Origin: an uncultured Fibrobacter sp.
Lineage (GTDB): Bacteria > Fibrobacterota > Fibrobacteria > Fibrobacterales > Fibrobacteraceae
DNA: 64,000 bases
Assembly (NCBI RefSeq): GCF_947305105.1
Contig: NZ_CAMZCS010000001.1
Location: 248,001 to 312,000 of the forward strand
Direction: 5' to 3'
Part shown: piece after piece, positions 37,941 through 47,781 of the stretch
How positions within the stretch are numbered: position 1 is the stretch's first letter
How the letters are laid out: every line of letters starts with the position of its first letter
The notes under the pieces: generated by a model
The model's input: the letters and a program-made list of their open reading frames with translations, nothing else
Databases searched by the model: none
What the model was told of the DNA's origin: nothing
Program-made: the position numbers and the translations under genes

Positions 37941-40631
37941 ATGTCAGAAGAAATGGTACCAGGCTCGCAGTTCAAGTCCCTCATCGAGAAGGACATGCAG
38001 GATTGCTACCTCCGCTATTCCATGAGCGTGATTGTGGCGCGTGCGCTGCCCGATGCGCGCGACGGCTTCAAGCCCGTGCATCGCCGCGTGATGTTCAGTA
38101 TGCACAAGCTGGGCGTGGTGCCCAACAAGGGTACGGTCAAGTCCGCCCGTATCGTGGGTGACGTCATCGGTAAGTACCACCCGCATGGCGACTCTGCCGT
38201 GTACGAGACGCTTGCGCGTATGGCCCAGGATTTCTCCCTGCGTTACCCGCTGGTGTTTGGTCAGGGGAACTTCGGCTCCATCGACGGCGACAGCCCTGCT
38301 GCCATGCGTTACACCGAAGCCAAGATGAACAACCTCGGCGCGCTCATGCTCGAAGACCTGGAAAAGGATACCGTCGACATGGGCCCGAACTACGACGAGT
38401 CTCTTGAAGAACCGCTGGTTCTGCCTTCGGCACTCCCGAACATGATCGTGAACGGTACCTCCGGCATTGCCGTGGGTATGGCGACCAACATGGCTCCGCA
38501 CAACTTGCGCGAAGTCGGTGCTGCAATACACGCCTTGGCCGAAAATCCGGACCTTCCGGACGAGAACCTGATGGACTACATCAAGGGCCCGGACTTCCCG
38601 ACTGGCGCTGTCGTCTGTGGCCGTTCCGGCATCCGCGAAGCTTACCTCACGGGCCATGGCCGCGTGCGCGTGCGTGCCCGCACCGAAATCGAGACGGATT
38701 CCAAGGGCAAGCCGCGCATCATCGTCACTGAAATCCCGTACATGGTGAACAAGGCGGAACTCTGCAAGAAGATTGCAGACCTTGTTCGCGAAAAGCGTGT
38801 CGACGGCATTACCGACATCCGTGACGAATCTAGCCGCGACATTCGCATCGTTATTGAATTGCGCCGCGACGCTGTGGGTGAGGTGGTCTTGAACAACTTG
38901 TTCAAGTACACACAGTTACAGACAACGTTTAGCATTTACAACCTGGCCCTCATCAACAACCTGCCCAAGGTCCTCACGATGAAGGAACTGCTGCAGGTTT
39001 ACATCGATCACCGCCTCGATGTGATTACGCGTTCGACGCAGTTCGATTTGAAGAAGGCCGAAGCCCGCCTCCACATTATCGAAGGCCTGCGCATCGCGAC
39101 GCAGAACATCGACGAAGTCGTTCAGATTATCAAGGCGAGCAAGACGACCGACATCGCGAAGGCGTCTTTGCAGGAACGTTTCAACCTCGACGAAATCCAG
39201 TCGCAGGCCATCGTGGACATGCGCCTCGGCCAGCTCACCGGCCTCAACCTCGAAAAGTTGGAAGCCGAATACAACGAGCTCGTGGCGACTGTCGCCGACT
39301 TGAAGGACATTCTCGAAAAGCGTGAACGCCGCATCGCCATCATGCTCGAAAAGCTCGATGCCGTCGTGGCGAAGTACGGTGACGAACGCCGCACCACCAT
39401 CGGCGAAGCTATCGACGATAGCGACGAAGAAGACCTGATTGCCGAAGAGGAACAGGTGATTACGCTCAGCCGCGAAGGCTACATCCGCCGTCTGCCTATC
39501 GACACGTTCAAGGCGCAGAACCGCGGTGGCAAGGGCATTATCGGTGCCGGCCTCAAGGACGAGGACAACGTGGAGCAGATCTTCACGGCGAGCACGCACA
39601 GCTACCTGCTCGTGTTCACCAACAAGGGCCGCGCCTACTGGACCAAGGTCTACCGCCTGCCCGAAGGCACGCGCAACGGCAAGGGCCGCCCGATTGTCAA
39701 CTTTGTCGGGCTTACGGACGGCGAAACCGTGCAGGCGATTGTGCCGGTACGTAAGTTCGGCGGTTTCTTCTGTCTCGTGTTCGTGACCAAGAAGGGTATC
39801 ATCAACAAGATGGACCTCAAGTTGTTCAGCCGTCCGCGCAAGGCGGGCGTGAACGCCATCAGCTTGGATGAGGGCGACGAACTCGTGAAGGTGCAGCTCG
39901 TGGGCATGACCGAAGAAGAATACAAGGCTTCCCTGAACGCAGGCGATGTCGAAGATGCCGCCGATCAGTCTGCCGAGACTGCCGAACCGGCCGATGGTGA
40001 GGCCGAAGGCGATGATGCCGAAAATCTGGAAGCGCGCCCGATTCCGAATGACCTGCTGATGATTGCCACCCGCAACGGCCAGGCGGTCACGTTCCCGATC
40101 ACCTGCTTCCGCCCGATGGGCCGTGGCACTCATGGTGTCCGTGGTATCAAGCTCTCCGAAGGTGACGAGGTCATCTCGCTCCTGTGGCTCAAGGCGGGCA
40201 ACAAGGTGCTCACCATTACCGAGAAGGGCTACGGCAAGCGCAGCGAGCCGGGTACCTACCGTGTCACCAAGCGTGGCAGCAAGGGCGTCAAGAACCTGAA
40301 CGTCACCGACAAGATCGGTTCGGCCGTGTTCGTGGACAGCGTTGCCGACGATTACGACTTGATCATCACCACCAAGGAAGGCCAGGTCATCCGCATCAAG
40401 GCTGCCGACATCCGCCTCACGGGCCGTAATGCCCAGGGCGTGAAGGCCATCAGCTTGCGCGAAGGCGACGTGGTGCAAGATGCGACCGCCCTCCCGAGCG
40501 TGGAAGATATCGAACACGATAGCGCCGAGGCGAAGGAGACCTTCGACAAGGTGGAAGGCGTCGAAGTCGATGACGATTCCGTGGATGCTTCCGCTTCCGA
40601 AGGCGAAAATCCGACTCCGGAAGGCGTCTAG
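37941..40631 (+). CDS. gyrA: DNA gyrase subunit A
   Basis: An 896-residue type II topoisomerase subunit that, with GyrB, negatively supercoils DNA. The catalytic Tyr is in AMRYTEAKM (about 122). The quinolone-region motif [19 protein letters not shown] keeps Ser at the position equivalent to E. coli 83 and has Glu at 87. The C-terminal propeller has a GyrA box variant QNRGGKG (about 527; canonical QRRGGKG). An acidic insert rich in Asp/Glu/Ala (about 670-698) and an acidic tail (about 860-890) lengthen the C-terminal domain. GAGG precedes the ATG, and a terminator follows. ParC is less likely because a GyrA box is present. Confidence 0.96.
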
Positions 40632-40656
40632 TCCGTAAAAAACGAACTCAGAAAGT

Positions 40657-40696
40657 AAAAAAAGAGGCAATCTTTCCGGGATGGCCTCTTTTTTTA
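40657..40696 (+). terminator. Rho-independent terminator after gyrA
   Basis: Stem AAAGAGGC / GCCTCTTT with a 15-nt loop and a long T-run. Confidence 0.85.
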
Positions 40697-40725
40697 TAGT
40701 TTATTGAGAAGGTAGGTGCAGGAAT

Positions 40726-41802
40726 ATGAGAAAAGAAATCCTAAAAACGGGCTTTGTCGTTGCCTTGGTGCTTGCGGTTTCCGCCTATGCGGCCGATGCC
40801 TGCAACGACGAAATGGGCCATGTGGGCGAGGGCAAGAAAGTCATTGGGACCGGTTCCGAGAGCGTCAAGGGGGACGTCGGCAATTCGGGTTTCCAGTACG
40901 AACTCTGGCATTCCGAAGGCTCGGGCTCCCTGACTTATTATGACAACGGAACCTTTTCTGCGGAATGGAGTGGCTCGCAAGACTTCATTGCCCGAGTCGG
41001 TCTCCGGTATGCCGAAAGCAAAAATTTTGACGAATTTGGCAATTTTTCAGCGGATTTCAAGTTCACCAAGTCGGGAAGTGCCGATTTCTCGTATATTGGC
41101 ATCTATGGCTGGACGGATAATCCGCGCGCCGATTACTTCATCCTGGAAGACTGGTTCAGCGAACCGAATCCCGAGTATTTGGGCGAAAAGAAGGGCGAGA
41201 TTACGGTAGACGGGGATACGTACGACATCTATTCCTTTAAGCAAAACAAGCTGTATGTCCAGGGAGACATAAACTATCCGACTTTTTACAGTGTCCGTCG
41301 CATACCCCGCCAGTGCGGCCATATAGATATCACGGCCCACTTCAAGAAATGGACGGAGCTCGGCCTCAATCTGGGCAAGATGAACGAGGTCATGATGGTT
41401 GCGGAAGCGGGCAATGGTTCTGCTACGATAGATTTCACCTATTTCAACGTGACCGAATCGGAGCCTAGTTCTCCGGCTCCATCCTCCAGTTCCGCAACTC
41501 CGGAATCGAGTTTTGCCGTGCCGGCCTCTGATGCCCTCGTTGAATCTTCTAGCTCTGTAACCCAGGAATTGAAACCTGCTGCAAAATCGTCTGAATCGAC
41601 CACGGCGATGATGCAAAAGGTCCACATTAGTTCGTCCGACCGCAGCCTGGTCGTTTTCGATATGCAGGGCCGTATTTTGGGTAAGCTGACGGTACCGGCG
41701 GGAATGGCACTAAATAGTGCTATTTTTGCAAAATTCGGCAGGCCGGGTATCTACATGGTGCAGTCCGACGGGGTTTTCAAGGTGCTTTCCGTGGCAAAAT
41801 AG
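40726..41802 (+). CDS. GH11 xylanase-like protein 1, catalytic nucleophile replaced
   Basis: A 358-residue secreted protein: signal ending SAYA, a GH11 jelly-roll (about 45-245), Ser/Pro/Glu linker and the C-terminal VFDMQG module (about 305-358). GH11 enzymes are retaining endo-1,4-beta-xylanases. Fold marks include YDNGTFSAEW, YIGIYGWTDNP and DITAHFKKW. At the nucleophile position the family NPLVEYY reads NPRADYF (Asp about 136 instead of Glu), and the thumb motif PSI is replaced by LYVQG, while the acid/base Glu (about 227, VAEAG) remains. It may be inactive, slow, or a xylan-binding protein. First of five tandem paralogues. Confidence 0.88.
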   Translation: MRKEILKTGFVVALVLAVSAYAADACNDEMGHVGEGKKVIGTGSESVKGDVGNSGFQYELWHSEGSGSLTYYDNGTFSAEWSGSQDFIARVGLRYAESKNFDEFGNFSADFKFTKSGSADFSYIGIYGWTDNPRADYFILEDWFSEPNPEYLGEKKGEITVDGDTYDIYSFKQNKLYVQGDINYPTFYSVRRIPRQCGHIDITAHFKKWTELGLNLGKMNEVMMVAEAGNGSATIDFTYFNVTESEPSSPAPSSSSATPESSFAVPASDALVESSSSVTQELKPAAKSSESTTAMMQKVHISSSDRSLVVFDMQGRILGKLTVPAGMALNSAIFAKFGRPGIYMVQSDGVFKVLSVAK

Positions 41803-41827
41803 CTTGAAAAAATGTAAAAAAAAGTAT

Positions 41828-41861
41828 AAAAAGGTTTTTTCGGCAAGAAAACCCTTTTTTT
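41828..41861 (+). terminator. Terminator after GH11 gene 1
   Basis: Hairpin AAGGGTTTTC-type stem (AAAAGGTTTT / AAAACCCTTT) followed by a run of T. Confidence 0.7.
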
Positions 41862-41927
41862 ATTGTGCTATTTACTACAGAAAATTGCAAAAAAACAAAA
41901 AAAACAAGAAAAAAATCAGTATTTATC

Positions 41928-41935
41928 TATATTTG
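41928..41935 (+). promoter_or_regulatory. TATATTTG promoter element before GH11 gene 2
   Basis: Exact TAnnTTTG match 20 nt before the ATG at 41956; a GGAGG ribosome site lies between. Confidence 0.55.
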
Positions 41936-41955
41936 GTACAAACTTTGGAGGTTTT

Positions 41956-43122
41956 ATGAAAACGAGAATTATTGGGGCTTCGGCTCTTTGTGTAGCTTTT
42001 GCCGCTTCTAGCGCTTTGGCTCAGGATTTCTGCCAAACTGCTGCTCATAGCGGTTCTAAGGTGGAAGTTTCCACGAATAAAGTGGATAAGTTCAGCAATG
42101 GTATTGGTTACGAACTTTGGAACGAAGGCGGCAACGGTGGTTCCGCTACGTTCTACGACGATGGCTCCTTCAGCTGCAAGATGACCGGTGCCAAGGACTA
42201 TCTGTGCCGTGCCGGTCTTTCTTTCAATAGCGATAAGACCCACGAGGAAATTGGCCACATGAAGGCGGATTTCAAGCTGGTCAAGGGTAATCTTTCCGGA
42301 ATCGACTATTCCTACATCGGCATTTACGGCTGGACCCGTGAACCTCTGGTAGAATGGTATATCGTGGACAACTCCGGTAGCCAGTACATGCCCGGTGATT
42401 GGGTTGCTCAGGGATCTTCTAAAAAGGCTCATGGCGAGTATGAAATTGACGGTGCCAAGTACAAGGTTTATGAAGGTGACCGCACCTCTTATTCCATCGA
42501 TGGCGACAATACCTATTTCAAGCAGTATTTCAGCGTGCGTACTTCGATGCGCGATTGCGGTACCATCGATATTACCGCCCACTTCAAGAAGTGGGAAGAA
42601 CTCGGCATGAGAATGGGTAAGTTGCACGAAGCCAAGATCCTTGGTGAAGCCGGTAGCAATTCGGGTCCGAATGCCCGTGGCGAATACGACTTCCCCTATG
42701 CCAAAGTCTATATCGAAGGTGCTGCTCCCAGTTCTTCTGAAACCCCGTCTTCTAGCTCCGAAGCTCCGAAGTCCAGCTCCGATGCTAAGTCTTCCAGCTC
42801 CGTTGGCCCGGCTTCCAGCTCCGACGCTCAGTCTTCCAGCTCTGTTGGCCCGGCTTCCAGCTCCGATGCCGTATCGTCTTCTAGTGCTCCTGCCAACGTA
42901 AGCAGCAGCTCCTCGGGTCTCGCTCTCCCTGCCGAAATGAAGGTCTTCCGTATGTCCGGTACCGCCCAGGTGTTCGACATGCAGGGTAAGTTCCTCGGCA
43001 CGGTTGAACTGAAGTCCGGCGCTTCTCTGAAGGAAATCGTCGTGAACAAGTTCGGAAAGTCCGGAATGTATCTGCTGAAGCAGGGTGCTGCCGTTAAGGT
43101 TGTCTCTGCCGAAAAGCGCTAA
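41956..43122 (+). CDS. GH11 xylanase 2 with Ser-rich linker and C-terminal module
   Basis: A 388-residue secreted enzyme: signal ending SALA, GH11 domain (about 40-262), a Ser-rich repetitive linker (SSSVGPASSSDAQ-type, about 264-322) and the VFDMQGKFLG module. Nucleophile Glu in EPLVEWYIV (about 133) and acid/base Glu in ILGEAG (about 231) are both present. The thumb reads YSIDG instead of PSIxG. GGAGG precedes the ATG, with a TATATTTG element 20 nt upstream. It probably cleaves xylan outside the cell; the C-terminal module is likely for secretion or anchoring. Confidence 0.9.
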   Translation: MKTRIIGASALCVAFAASSALAQDFCQTAAHSGSKVEVSTNKVDKFSNGIGYELWNEGGNGGSATFYDDGSFSCKMTGAKDYLCRAGLSFNSDKTHEEIGHMKADFKLVKGNLSGIDYSYIGIYGWTREPLVEWYIVDNSGSQYMPGDWVAQGSSKKAHGEYEIDGAKYKVYEGDRTSYSIDGDNTYFKQYFSVRTSMRDCGTIDITAHFKKWEELGMRMGKLHEAKILGEAGSNSGPNARGEYDFPYAKVYIEGAAPSSSETPSSSSEAPKSSSDAKSSSSVGPASSSDAQSSSSVGPASSSDAVSSSSAPANVSSSSSGLALPAEMKVFRMSGTAQVFDMQGKFLGTVELKSGASLKEIVVNKFGKSGMYLLKQGAAVKVVSAEKR

Positions 43123-43145
43123 ATTTTAGAAACATTGCTGAAAAT

Positions 43146-43180
43146 GGCCCGTTTCCTCATGAGGAAACGGGTCTTTTTTT
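43146..43180 (+). terminator. Terminator after GH11 gene 2
   Basis: Perfect stem CCCGTTTCCTC / GAGGAAACGGG with a very short loop and seven T. Confidence 0.92.
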
Positions 43181-43224
43181 GTCACAAAATGCCGTTTTTT
43201 TGCGGAAATCACAAGTCAAGGAAT

Positions 43225-43242
43225 GTTGTTTTATGATACAAC
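43225..43242 (+). promoter_or_regulatory. Palindrome GTTGT-N8-ACAAC upstream of GH11 gene 3
   Basis: GTTGTTTTATGATACAAC, 90 bp before the ATG. The same 5+8+5 arrangement occurs before GH11 gene 4 (44604-44621), and a looser version occurs before gene 5, so it could be a regulator site. Confidence 0.45.
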
Positions 43243-43332
43243 ATCATTTATTTCTGCTGGGAGAAGCTTTGTGGAAAAGGGTATAGATTACATATGGTAT
43301 GGTTGATAAATAACCATAAGAGGAGCTCAAAG

Positions 43333-44505
43333 ATGAATAAAAAAATATTGAAATTCGGCCTTGCCCTTGCGATGGGGCTTGTCTCGTCTGCATATGCGGA
43401 CATCGATGCCTGCAAGGATAATATGGGCCATGAAGGCAAAGAATCGAGGACCCAGGGCCAGAACAACTCCAGCGTGACGGGTAACGTCGGCAGTTCTCCG
43501 TACCACTATGAAATCTGGTACCAGGGCGGCAACAATTCCATGACCTATTATGATAATGGTACTTACAAGGCCAGTTGGAGCAATACAGGAGACTTCCTTG
43601 CTCGTGTCGGATTCAGATACGACGAAAAGCAGACTTACGAGCAAGTTGGCCCCATCGATGCCTATTTCAACTGGAAAAAGGATGGTAGTGCCGGTGGTTA
43701 CAACTATATTGGTATCTACGGCTGGACGGTTGATCCGCTGGTAGAATACTACATCGTGGATGACTGGTTCAGCAAGCCGGGTGCAAACCTCCTCGGCCAG
43801 AGAAAGGGTGAATTCGAGGTGGATGGCGCCAAGTACGAAATTTGGCAGAATACCCGTGTCCAACAGCCTTCCATTAAAGGTACTTCGACTTTCCCCCAGT
43901 ATTTCAGCGTGCGTAGTAACTCCCGTTCTTGCGGACATATCGACATCACGGCTCACTTCAAGAAATGGGAAGAACTCGGCATGAGGATGGGTAAGATGTA
44001 CGAAGCCAAGGTGCTTGTCGAAGCCGGCGGCGGTACTGGTTCCTTCGATGTCTCCTACTTCAAGATGACAGACAAGAAGCATCCTCTCGAATCTGCAGTT
44101 CCGTCTTCTAGCTCCGAAGCCCCGAAATCCAGTTCTGATAAGGCTCCGAAGTCCAGTTCTGACAAGGCTCCGGCCTCCAGTTCTGACAAGGCTCCGGCTT
44201 CTAGTTCTGACAAGGCCCCGGCCTCCAGCTCTGACGCCGCTGGTCAATCCTCCAGTTCTGAGCTGGCCGTTACTGCCCCCGCCGGTTCCTCCAGCTCCGG
44301 CCCCAGTGCCCTTCCGGCCGAAATTGCGAACTTTGGCATGGCTGGTACCTATCAGGTGTTCGACATGCAGGGCAAGTTCCTCGGCAAGGTTGAACTGAAG
44401 GATGGCTCCACCCTCAAGGCTGCCGTCGGAAGCAAGTTCCCCCATTCAGCTATCTACATGGTCAAGCGCGGCTCTGTAGCCAAGATTGTCTCTGTAGAAC
44501 GCTAA
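43333..44505 (+). CDS. GH11 xylanase 3 with SSSDKAP repeat linker and C-terminal module
   Basis: A 390-residue secreted enzyme: signal ending SAYA, GH11 domain (about 45-245), linker with 27-bp repeats encoding SSSDKAPAS units, and the VFDMQGKFLG module. Nucleophile Glu in DPLVEYYIV (about 138), thumb QPSIKGT (about 178-184) and acid/base Glu in VLVEAG (about 230) are all intact, so it should be an active endo-xylanase. The ATG at 43333 has AGGAG upstream. It has its own terminator and a GTTGT-N8-ACAAC palindrome upstream. Confidence 0.93.
   Translation: MNKKILKFGLALAMGLVSSAYADIDACKDNMGHEGKESRTQGQNNSSVTGNVGSSPYHYEIWYQGGNNSMTYYDNGTYKASWSNTGDFLARVGFRYDEKQTYEQVGPIDAYFNWKKDGSAGGYNYIGIYGWTVDPLVEYYIVDDWFSKPGANLLGQRKGEFEVDGAKYEIWQNTRVQQPSIKGTSTFPQYFSVRSNSRSCGHIDITAHFKKWEELGMRMGKMYEAKVLVEAGGGTGSFDVSYFKMTDKKHPLESAVPSSSSEAPKSSSDKAPKSSSDKAPASSSDKAPASSSDKAPASSSDAAGQSSSSELAVTAPAGSSSSGPSALPAEIANFGMAGTYQVFDMQGKFLGKVELKDGSTLKAAVGSKFPHSAIYMVKRGSVAKIVSVER
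44128..44232 (+). repeat. 27-bp tandem repeats encoding the SSSDKAPxS linker
   Basis: About four near-identical units encode SSSDKAP(K/A)S in the GH11 gene 3 linker; copy number may vary between strains. Confidence 0.85.
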
Positions 44506-44526
44506 ATCGCGTTTTAAACGATGTTT

Positions 44527-44561
44527 GACCCGATTCCCTCCCGGAATTGGGTCTTTTTTTT
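44527..44561 (+). terminator. Terminator after GH11 gene 3
   Basis: Stem GACCCGATTCC / GGAATTGGGTC followed by eight T. Confidence 0.92.
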
Positions 44562-44603
44562 GTCAAAAAACGCTGTGAAATGACTGTTTGTAAACTGTTT
44601 CGT

Positions 44604-44621
44604 GTTGTTTCCTATAACAAC
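44604..44621 (+). promoter_or_regulatory. Palindrome GTTGTT-N6-AACAAC upstream of GH11 gene 4
   Basis: GTTGTTTCCTATAACAAC, 76 bp before the ATG; same spacing as the site at 43225. Confidence 0.45.
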
Positions 44622-44697
44622 GACTTTTGCGCTTTTTTCGCTATTTATTGTGGTTTCGCACCTATATTAAGAAGGATAACTTTATGAGGAGTAAACT

Positions 44698-46296
44698 ATG
44701 AAAAGTGTATCTAAAATTGCCAAAATGAGTCTTGCACTCATTGTTTCTTGCGGCTTAGGCAGTGCTTTCGCTGTTGACGCCTGTAAGGACCAGATGAGCA
44801 AGTCTGCAGGTTCTGGACATGGAGTGAGCGGGAACTCGGTCGGTTCCATCAGCGGCACCCCGTGGGGTTTCGAACAGTGGTATCAGGGTGGCAGCGCTTC
44901 GATGACCTACTACGATAACGGTACGTTCAAGGCCAACTGGAACAATTCTAACGACTACCTGACCCGCGTGGGTTATCAGTATGGTGGTGGCGGTATTGAC
45001 CATAAATCCAAGTATTTCACGGTCGATTACAACTACAAAAAGACGGGCTCTGCTCAGTATGGCTATATCGGTATTTATGGCTGGACTGCTAACCCGGAAA
45101 CCGAATACTACATCGTGGACGACTGGTACAGCAAGCCGAGCGAAAACTACGTCGGTGAAAAATTCGGTGAAATCACTGTGGACGGCGCCAAGTACACCAT
45201 CCACGCCTTCCTTCGCCAGCAGGAACCTTCCAAGTCGGGTACTTCCACCTTCGTCCAGTTCTTTAGCATCCGTCAGAGTGCGCGTCAGTGCGGCCATATC
45301 GACATTTCTGCCCACTTCAAGAAGTGGGACGAACTCTTCACGGGCCAGAACAAGCAACTCAAGGGTTCCAAGGGCGGTGGCTCTGCTTCGCTCAAGTTCG
45401 GTAAGGTGACCGAAGTGATGCTCATGACCGAAGCTGGTGGCGGCGCTACGGGTTCCGTGGAATACACCTACTTCGACATGAAGGATAACGGATCTCCTTC
45501 CGAGGTCGTTCCGCCGAAGGAAATCGAACGCAAGCCGTTCGGTGGCACGGCAGTCTCCATTCCGGGTTCTGTCGAAGCCGAAAACTTTGACGAAGGTAAC
45601 GAAGGCGTTACGTACAGCGGTGCGCAGGGTGCATCGGGTGACGATGGCGACCACACCTATCGCGGTGAAGATTATGCCAGTGTCGACATCGTGAGCGGTG
45701 GCTCTGGTAAGGCAATCGGTTATACCGCTGCCGACGAATGGCTCGAATACACCATTAACGTTACTCAGGCCGGTGAATACGATATCGAAGCCAACGTTTC
45801 GAACGGTTCCGGTGCAGGTACGGTTGAACTGTCCCTGGACGGCACGGCTCTTGCCTCTCTTGCTTTCACGGGAACTGCAGATGACTGGAATGCCTATGAA
45901 CTTGCCAAGGGCAAGGCCACTCTCACTGCTGGTCAACACAAGCTCCGCATCACCATTGCAAATGCAAATACGAATGTGGACTACGTGAAGTTCAGCCTGC
46001 CGGGTGCTACTACCGTTGATCCGGGTACAAATCCGGGGACGGATCCTGGCACGAATCCCGCTACGAATCCGGGAACCAATCCGCAAGAAGATCCCCTGGC
46101 TTTGGCCAAGAATGTTCGCTTGAACAAGACCAGCCATGTGGCTCAGGTGTTCGATATGCAGGGCCGTTCTCTTGGCAGCGTTACTTTTGCCAACGGAACT
46201 TCTATCAACGATGCCATCTTTGCCAAGTTCGGCAAGGCCGGTGTTTACATGGTGAGGGTTGGCAGCAAGGTCCGTTCCATTTCTGTGACCCGCTAA
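44698..46296 (+). CDS. GH11 xylanase 4 with CBM6-like domain and C-terminal module
   Basis: A 532-residue secreted enzyme: signal ending SAFA, GH11 domain (about 45-262) with an extra Gly/Lys-rich insertion (about 214-235), a CBM6-like domain (about 280-440; IPGSVEAENFDEG, TADEWLEYTINV, VDYVKFSLPG), a PGTNPGTDP linker and the VFDMQGRSLG module. Nucleophile Glu in NPETEYYIV (about 136) and acid/base Glu in LMTEAG (about 245) are present; the thumb reads EPSKSGT. CBM6 domains often bind xylan or cellulose chains. GGAG before the ATG. A terminator follows. Confidence 0.93.
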   Translation: MKSVSKIAKMSLALIVSCGLGSAFAVDACKDQMSKSAGSGHGVSGNSVGSISGTPWGFEQWYQGGSASMTYYDNGTFKANWNNSNDYLTRVGYQYGGGGIDHKSKYFTVDYNYKKTGSAQYGYIGIYGWTANPETEYYIVDDWYSKPSENYVGEKFGEITVDGAKYTIHAFLRQQEPSKSGTSTFVQFFSIRQSARQCGHIDISAHFKKWDELFTGQNKQLKGSKGGGSASLKFGKVTEVMLMTEAGGGATGSVEYTYFDMKDNGSPSEVVPPKEIERKPFGGTAVSIPGSVEAENFDEGNEGVTYSGAQGASGDDGDHTYRGEDYASVDIVSGGSGKAIGYTAADEWLEYTINVTQAGEYDIEANVSNGSGAGTVELSLDGTALASLAFTGTADDWNAYELAKGKATLTAGQHKLRITIANANTNVDYVKFSLPGATTVDPGTNPGTDPGTNPATNPGTNPQEDPLALAKNVRLNKTSHVAQVFDMQGRSLGSVTFANGTSINDAIFAKFGKAGVYMVRVGSKVRSISVTR

Positions 46297-46329
46297 AAGT
46301 TTCAAATCTAAAACACTCCTTATATTGTC

Positions 46330-46367
46330 AAAGGTGCCTCGTTCGGCGGGGTACCTTTTCTTTTTTT
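46330..46367 (+). terminator. Terminator after GH11 gene 4
   Basis: Stem AAAGGTGCC / GGTACCTTT (one wobble) followed by a T-run. Confidence 0.8.
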
Positions 46368-46413
46368 GCGTAAAAAGCCTTTCATTGTCGTTTTTACAAC
46401 AAAGAATTATTTG

Positions 46414-46431
46414 AAAAGTGATGTAGAACAC
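46414..46431 (+). promoter_or_regulatory. Motif AAAAGTGATGTAGAACAC upstream of GH11 gene 5
   Basis: One mismatch to the 18-base motif before the GH8 gene (33179-33196), 88 bp before the ATG. Confidence 0.4.
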
Positions 46432-46518
46432 AATTTGAAATTATTTTATAAGCAGGTTGGCTGATGGTGGCATTTCCAAAGAGAAAATGTCTCTATCGGC
46501 AAAAAATTGGAGTTGGAT

Positions 46519-47781
46519 ATGAACAAATTGTTCCTTGGGTTGGCCAGGGCCACGTTTTTTGTGACCCTCGCTTTTGGCTTAAACGCTTATGCAGCCGATG
46601 CTTGCAGCGAAAAGGGCGGGCATTCCGGAAACGGCACGACCACTCGTGGTCAAAATAATTCAAGTGTGACGGGGAATATCGGTAGTTCCGGTTACCATTA
46701 TGAAATATGGTATCAAGGCGGAAATAACTCGATGACCTATTACAATGACGGAACATTCTCGGCGGAATGGAACGGCTCCAACGACTTCCTGGCTCGCGTG
46801 GGACTCAAGTACAACAGTACCCAAACGCACGACCAGATTGGTTATTTTACTGCTGATTACAAGTTCACCAAGTCGGGGAGTGCTGCTTATTCCTATATCG
46901 GCATTTACGGTTGGACCGAGAATCCGCTGGTGGAATACTATATCGTCGATGACTGGTTTACCAAGCCGAGTCCGCAGTATTTAGGCACAAAGAAGGGCGA
47001 AATCACGGTGGACGGCGATACCTATGATATTTACACGTTTACTCGCGTGAACCAGCCTTCGATTAAGGGGACTTCTACTTTCCCGCAGTTCTTCAGTGTA
47101 CGCCGTAACGCTCGCCAGTGCGGCCATATCGACATTACCGCCCATTTCAAGAAATGGGGGGAGGTTGGCCTGAATCTCGGGAAGATGTACGAGGTGAAGG
47201 TGCTGGCCGAAGCCGGTGGCGGTGCTACCGGAAAGATTGACTTCACCTACTTCAACATAACGTCTAAAGGTTCACCGTCTGGCTCGGAAACAGCGGTAAC
47301 GCCGAAATCCAGTGCATCGACCCATCATTCGTCGACATCCATTCATCCTTCTTCATCCTCTCATCGATCCTCGCATTCTGTTTCCAGTTCTTCGAGAACG
47401 AGCAGCCATCACAGGAGCAGTTCCAGTAAGGCGAAGGTTTCGTCTTCGAGCCGGGATTTTTGGGGAAGTGTCGTCGCTTCGTCTTCTAGTATAACCATTC
47501 TTTCGCCAATTTCCGGTTCCAGTGTTGCTCCCGTTATCATTCCGATTAGCAGCAGTTCTGGAAACATCATTGGATCCATTGACGCTCTCCCGGATGTGTC
47601 GCCGGTGCCGATGGGAACATCGGTATTGCAGGTGTTCGACGTGCAGGGCAAGTATCTCGGCAAGGTTGAATCTAGGGATGGAACTTCTTTGAACGATGCC
47701 GTGTTCATGAAGTTTGGCAAGACGGGTGTTTACATGGTTAAACGTGACGGCAAAGTAAAAATGTTGTCTGTGACGCGCTAA
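46519..47781 (+). CDS. GH11 xylanase 5 with His/Ser-rich linker and C-terminal module
   Basis: A 420-residue secreted enzyme: signal ending NAYA, GH11 domain (about 45-248), a His/Ser-rich linker (HHSSTSIHPSSSSHRSSH, about 270-300, unlike the others) and the VFDVQGKYLG module. Nucleophile Glu in NPLVEYYIV (about 139), thumb QPSIKGT (about 179-185) and acid/base Glu in VLAEAG (about 231) are intact. The ATG at 46519 has GGAG 8 nt upstream. Cys near the mature N-terminus (ADAC) and in RQCGHID are conserved in the array and probably form a disulfide. Confidence 0.93.
   Translation: MNKLFLGLARATFFVTLAFGLNAYAADACSEKGGHSGNGTTTRGQNNSSVTGNIGSSGYHYEIWYQGGNNSMTYYNDGTFSAEWNGSNDFLARVGLKYNSTQTHDQIGYFTADYKFTKSGSAAYSYIGIYGWTENPLVEYYIVDDWFTKPSPQYLGTKKGEITVDGDTYDIYTFTRVNQPSIKGTSTFPQFFSVRRNARQCGHIDITAHFKKWGEVGLNLGKMYEVKVLAEAGGGATGKIDFTYFNITSKGSPSGSETAVTPKSSASTHHSSTSIHPSSSSHRSSHSVSSSSRTSSHHRSSSSKAKVSSSSRDFWGSVVASSSSITILSPISGSSVAPVIIPISSSSGNIIGSIDALPDVSPVPMGTSVLQVFDVQGKYLGKVESRDGTSLNDAVFMKFGKTGVYMVKRDGKVKMLSVTR

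Follow-up and report, generated by a model that had tools for sequence, protein, structure and literature searches.

The window analysed here is a stretch of 64,000 nucleotides from an uncultured Fibrobacter sp. On the 3' side of gyrA it carries five GH11 genes in tandem (40726-47781), the first of which is referred to as copy 1 (Table 1). A sixth GH11 gene of the same genome is located on another contig (the C4 copy). Copy 1 matches the PF00457 profile with 126.3 bits (cut-off 27) and is 57% identical to copy 5 over residues 5-260. The association with gyrA extends to other loci, as a tblastn search with gyrA found matches adjoining the GH11 tandems in 12 of the 17 loci searched. PADLOC gave no match, and a plasmid search returned 5 distant GH11 records.

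Table 1. Features of the locus and members of the other altered GH11 groups. Empty cells: nothing to report.
Feature	Position	Strand	Basis or remark
gyrA, gene directly 5' of copy 1	37941..40631	+	ORF; DNA gyrase A by inspection
gyrA intrinsic terminator	40655..40697	+	T run ends at 40695
GH11 copy 1	40726..41802	+	ORF, 358 aa, ATG start, intact
Copy 1 GH11 domain, residues 54-236	40885..41433	+	PF00457, E 1.3e-36
Asp136 (GAT) replacing nucleophile Glu	41131..41133	+	alignment, codon read
Phe138 replacing conserved Tyr (presumably Tyr80 in B. circulans numbering)	41137..41139	+	alignment
Thumb NKLYVQG, residues 174-180 (LYV 41251-41259)	41245..41265	+	alignment
Thr186 replacing conserved Gln that hydrogen-bonds the nucleophile	41281..41283	+	alignment; Gln role from the available part of PMC7519127
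Glu227, acid/base, kept	41404..41406	+	alignment
C-terminal tail resembling T9SS sorting domain	41626..41763	+	TIGR04183, 15.6 bits, below cut-off 23
GH11 copy 2, active site intact, thumb YSI	41956..43122	+	profile match and alignment
GH11 copy 3, active site intact	43333..44505	+	profile match and alignment
GH11 copy 4 with CBM6, catalytic residues intact, thumb PSK	44698..46296	+	profile match and alignment
GH11 copy 5, canonical; this genome's canonical copy nearest to copy 1	46519..47781	+	profile match, tree, alignment
F80b members: L059, L060, L061, L078, L162, L092, L094, L045			
Q69 members: L068, L071, L081, L095, L120, L129, L161, L163, L170, L181, L187, L188			
R71 members: L048, L049, L050, L051, L052			

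The gyrA terminator was missed by a pattern scan with a loop limit of 8. Its predicted fold has an energy of -20.6 kcal/mol (z -2.9), and 4 of 200 shuffles were equally low. The ATG of copy 1 follows the T run after 30 nt, as compared to approximately 94-152 nt between the preceding terminator and the start for copies 2-5. This scant space suggests that copy 1 lacks a promoter, and the gene is perhaps weakly expressed. A promoter scan found 6 promoters against 6.9 expected, and among copies 2-5 a consensus promoter was placed directly upstream of copy 3 only. Since the scan is so sparse for most copies, it cannot show that copy 1 is without a promoter. At the other end of the gene, TIGR04183 matched four of the five tandem copies, in all cases below the cut-off of 23, and gave no match in copy 3. 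A tail with the motif VFDxQGxxLG is present in all five copies, suggesting a Fibrobacter variant of the T9SS sorting domain. The product of copy 1 is probably secreted.

Active site and thumb of copy 1

In the alignment, the segment YGWTDNPRADYFILED of copy 1 corresponds to YGWTxNPLVEYYIVDD of the sister copies and of the PDB GH11 structures 3wp4 and 1igo. At the nucleophile column, both references have Glu, whereas copy 1 has Asp136. The initial annotation had placed this replacement at about residue 136, and both the alignment and the codon confirm it, with the coordinates being right. Its views that the thumb is altered and that the acid/base Glu stays were also borne out. The thumb triplet LYV was found in 5 of 251 GH11 domains of the genus, all of them within the copy 1 lineage. 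However, the accompanying statement that all active GH11 enzymes use a PSI thumb motif went too far, as exact PSI is present in 46 of the 251 domains and the sister copies 2 and 4 also deviate from it.

To name further positions we use the residue numbers of the B. circulans enzyme (Glu78, Tyr80, Gln127 etc.), which we take to apply to the columns of copy 1. In this numbering, the further changes in copy 1 are Tyr80 to Phe, Gln127 to Thr, Arg112 to Gln, Phe125 to Tyr and Tyr166 to Asn, while Trp9, the Asp at position 35, Tyr69, Trp71 and Glu172 are kept. When 13 highly conserved key columns were compared between the GH11 copies of this genome, E78, Y80, F125 and Q127 were all altered in copy 1, and none of them in copies 2-5 or the C4 copy. 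It should be noted that the enrichment of key cleft columns among the lost conserved columns was not significant (4/13 versus 3/28, p 0.18). In total, 26 columns are peculiar to the copy 1 lineage, several of them around the cleft.

Asp at the nucleophile position is a conservative carboxylate replacement. The surroundings of this residue are known from NhGH11, whose residues Gln139, Tyr80 and Tyr91 match positions 127, 69 and 80 of B. circulans by our own alignment of the numberings. In the 1.0 Å structure of NhGH11, the nucleophile Glu forms hydrogen bonds with Gln139 and Tyr80, Tyr91 contacts the substrate directly, and deletion of thumb residues inactivated the enzyme (available part of PMC7519127). 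The thumb contributes to the -1 to -3 subsites, and mutants of its tip showed a kcat reduced by up to 70-fold, while natural GH11 enzymes can have Val or Leu at this tip (excerpts of PMC3962102). No E78D mutant of the B. circulans xylanase was found in the open-access text searched. Likewise, the titles of the open-access literature searched included no natural GH11 with an Asp nucleophile and no Fibrobacter GH11 pseudoenzyme.

AlphaFold2 was run on residues 22-246 of copy 1 with 20 input sequences. The model has a mean pLDDT of 90 and a pTM of 0.90, and the beta-jelly-roll is kept. Indeed, its best PDB matches in Foldseek were GH11 xylanases, with a TM of 0.87 to 3wp4. The thumb block is the poorest part (pLDDT 56) and its two strands stop early, whereas in the model of copy 5, built with the same 20 sequences, the thumb reaches about 95 pLDDT and the hairpin is nearly continuous; as the altered thumb is present in few of the 20 sequences, the low thumb pLDDT is suggestive only.

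The rarity of the Asp nucleophile was assessed in a PF00457 census of the genus with one genome per species, which gave 255 places in 76 of 80 genomes, all of which were read. The nucleophile column contains 248 Glu, 4 Asp and 3 gaps (252 readable), and the acid/base column 249 Glu, 1 Asp, 1 Asn, 1 Lys and 3 gaps. All four Asp nucleophiles belong to copy 1 orthologues, in genomes G000, G012, G052 and G021. As all four assemblies have the same GAT codon, a sequencing error is improbable. Across other genera of the family, 35 of 36 aligned rows have Glu as the nucleophile and 1 has a gap, some rows being one gene seen from two loci. Separately, the GH11 genes L172 (G069:C12:88530) and L151 (G053:C115:1462) appear to be broken, one with Lys at the acid/base position as if frameshifted, the other with an in-frame TGA.

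Orthologues, recent exchange and other altered lineages

Apart from the genome of the window itself, the genus search and a contig scan identified one and the same set of four orthologues; the 5 loci of the contig scan comprise these four and one weak tail match. The fifth orthologue, in genome G022, has Glu as nucleophile (GAA versus GAT) while sharing the LYV thumb, Phe and Thr with the other four. This combination indicates that the cleft was rebuilt first and that Glu changed to Asp late. Most simply, this was a single event, with one change on the tree. Conservation of Asp in the orthologues, a point raised in the initial annotation, thus extends to four of the five only, and these are probably recent near-identical copies and not the product of long conservation. 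Old, diverged orthologues that keep Asp were found neither in the genus search nor in the contig scan. The first tandem gene of G013 was considered as a diverged orthologue because of its position and 47-54% identity, but was rejected since the trees place it in the F80b group described below; it is left out of the orthologue count, yet still appears in the dS and w table of copy 1.

Among the four Asp copies, the dS of the GH11 domain is 0.010-0.036. The corresponding values are 0.125-0.135 for gyrA (three of the four Asp genomes compared) and 0.09-0.67 for copy 5 of the same Asp genomes, and the C-terminal tails of the Asp copies are mosaic. Altogether, these data indicate that the Asp domain has probably moved recently between species by recombination. 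The slot itself also exchanges cassettes, since in G013 a different altered GH11 gene (F80b) lies behind gyrA with the same leader and the same first nine residues as copy 1. A near-identical short leader is present in G012, G052, G021 and G013. In G022, G009 and two G020 loci the leader is longer and by inspection includes TATAAT-like boxes or others of similar AT-rich sequence, the box of G022 being TATAAT-like. Tandem members are swapped between species across the window and its syntenic loci L042-L045; G022 has genes of other types as its copies 2 and 4, and G013 as its copy 1.

None of the four Asp copies has a stop or frameshift. Within the first 250 aligned codons they show 7 replacement and 7 silent variable codons, which is fewer replacements than the approximately 3:1 ratio expected without selection. 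Values of w between the Asp copies and G022 are 0.135-0.148; these cover the older split and indicate that the lineage was under purifying selection. No rate increase was detected on the Asp stem, with 3 polarised changes on this stem versus 4 on the G022 branch and 12 ambiguous ones.

Altered active sites are not confined to the copy 1 lineage. Trees were built with 254 rows, i.e. 252 domains of the genus and two PDB references, with 3 fragments left out. IQ-TREE was run without the active-site columns on 70 of these rows, which comprised the full set of 30 altered domains and 40 canonical domains chosen to be less than 80% identical. Four altered groups together account for 30 of the 252 domains and have two separate origins. 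The copy 1 group (F80a, 5 members), R71 (5) and Q69 (12) form one clade with support 84/89, and F80b (8) arose separately (99/93). F80b members have Tyr80 changed to Phe, Tyr69 to His or Asn and an altered thumb, and they are mostly found inside GH11 tandems. Q69 members occur in twelve genomes and mostly have Tyr69 changed to Gln and Trp71 to Asn, although their count includes a G075 row that itself has no Gln there. They mostly keep both catalytic Glu residues, are about 300 aa long in most cases, and have no other GH11 match adjoining. R71 consists of five solitary copies with Trp71 changed to Arg and a PTI thumb. Usable pairs numbered 21 of 28 for F80b, 64 of 66 for Q69 and 10 of 10 for R71 and gave median w values of 0.35, 0.29 and 0.10, respectively, the R71 value reflecting purifying selection; pairs of the canonical copy 5 mostly have w below 0.06. 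As most altered members keep both catalytic Glu residues, they should not all be called dead. We tentatively raise the possibility, which we would not yet call probable, that Fibrobacter repeatedly turns tandem GH11 duplicates into secreted 'pseudo-xylanases' with altered active sites, that the copy 1 lineage is the one that lost the nucleophile Glu, and that this allele is now spreading between rumen species.

Possible roles of copy 1

On balance, we lean towards reading copy 1 as a GH11 paralogue that is secreted, has been remodelled and retains hardly any xylanase activity, if any at all. It sits in the slot behind the gyrA terminator, where space for a promoter is scarce, and would be carried there as a cassette open to exchange. 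The cleft was rebuilt first in a Fibrobacter lineage, by the LYV thumb and the changes of Tyr to Phe, Gln to Thr and Arg to Gln or Asp, and the nucleophile Glu was replaced by Asp later, on this rebuilt cleft. Because Asp is one methylene shorter and the hydrogen bond from Gln would be lost, attack on the anomeric carbon would be badly placed. As the gripping loop is gone too, xylan should be hydrolysed very slowly, if at all. Recent recombination has then probably carried the gene into several Fibrobacter species of the rumen. Some features count against a loss of activity, namely the retained acid/base Glu, Tyr69, Trp71 and Trp9, as a slow enzyme would need them, and possibly, by analogy, the natural Val at the thumb tip of other GH11 enzymes (excerpts of PMC3962102). 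The initial annotation had proposed a slow enzyme, a transglycosidase or a xylan-binding surface protein. Both a crippled enzyme and a binding protein are indeed plausible, but the prior remodelling of the cleft and the possible weak expression had escaped it.

A selected, non-catalytic pseudo-xylanase, which would bind glycan in a CBM-like manner and hold xylan at the cell surface via the remaining cleft or a secondary site, seems unlikely to us. The T9SS-like tail, the fold kept in the model and the w values given above all agree with such a role. Moreover, xylotriose is still bound by the inactive BcX E78Q, with values of 5.7 mM for the cleft and 23 mM for a secondary site (available part of PMC12078400), and inactive GH28 copies matter for pectin digestion in beetles (abstract of PMC6549527). 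According to the accessible text of PMC3079729, F. succinogenes S85 cleaves xylan but does not use it, which makes a surface protein that contacts xylan without cutting it conceivable. However, the main cleft should bind worse with a thumb altered at the -1 to -3 subsites (PMC3962102, in excerpt), copy 4 of the tandem already carries a CBM6, and the leader behind the terminator is short.

There is likewise only a limited chance that copy 1 is a duplicate in plain decay, drifting under relaxed selection and hitch-hiking on recombination around gyrA. The low w towards G022 and the four intact open reading frames argue against simple decay, as does the balance of replacement and silent codons among the Asp copies. 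These observations weigh against the short leader, the mosaic C-terminal tails and the swapping of the slot, where G013 has another altered GH11 behind the same leader, all of which would fit a decaying gene.

It appears still less probable that copy 1 is an active enzyme of changed specificity, whose rebuilt cleft would take another or more decorated glycan with Asp serving as the nucleophile. The rebuilt features include Arg134, which is new, next to the nucleophile, HSEG adjacent to Trp9 and the open thumb. The columns peculiar to the lineage around the cleft, the retained acid/base residue, several retained cleft aromatics and purifying selection would be compatible with this reading. Yet in G022 the remodelled cleft goes together with Glu, and the Asp is recent. 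In addition, replacing the nucleophile Glu of a retaining glycosidase by Asp is expected to cost orders of magnitude in activity. Finally, a decoy for plant xylanase inhibitors that insert into the GH11 cleft is highly improbable. Such a role would fit the fact that TAXI and XIP inhibit competitively and that loops of the XIP type fill the thumb-palm groove (available part of PMC9739030), but the altered thumb and cleft are the very area of inhibitor contact, so that binding should weaken.

Automatic annotation would label copy 1 a xylanase and include it when the fibre-degrading capacity of rumen communities is estimated. Should copy 1 and its relatives prove to be true pseudo-xylanases, bacteria would have an equivalent of the pseudoenzymes known from insects, where families of plant-wall enzymes have expanded. 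Their natural gradation, from Glu in a normal cleft through Glu in a rebuilt cleft to Asp in a rebuilt cleft, would moreover allow one to ask which parts a glycosidase loses first.

Comparison with known systems

Copy 1 shares its fold, the acid/base Glu, Tyr69 and Trp71 with canonical GH11 enzymes, such as CDBFV of Neocallimastix (3wp4) and copy 5, from which it differs by the Asp nucleophile, Phe for Tyr80, Thr for Gln127 and the LYV thumb. In engineered mutants (CDBFV E109A, 3wp5 and 3wp6; B. circulans E78Q), the nucleophile Glu is replaced and the fold kept as in copy 1. However, these are laboratory-made with an otherwise normal cleft, whereas copy 1 is natural, has Asp and a rebuilt cleft. 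FSU_0777, FSU_2741 and FSU_3006 of F. succinogenes S85 belong to the same genus and GH11 family, but are listed with measured xylanase activity (accessible text of PMC3079729). The inactive GH28 paralogues of leaf beetles resemble copy 1, as read here, in being an inactive copy within an expanded family of plant-wall enzymes; they belong to another family and to an insect, and their inactivity and phenotype were shown experimentally (abstract of PMC6549527). Within the genus, the F80b group (8 Fibrobacter GH11, e.g. in G064, G062 and G013) also has Tyr80 changed to Phe, an altered thumb and often the same tandem, but is of separate origin, keeps the nucleophile Glu and has additionally lost Tyr69.
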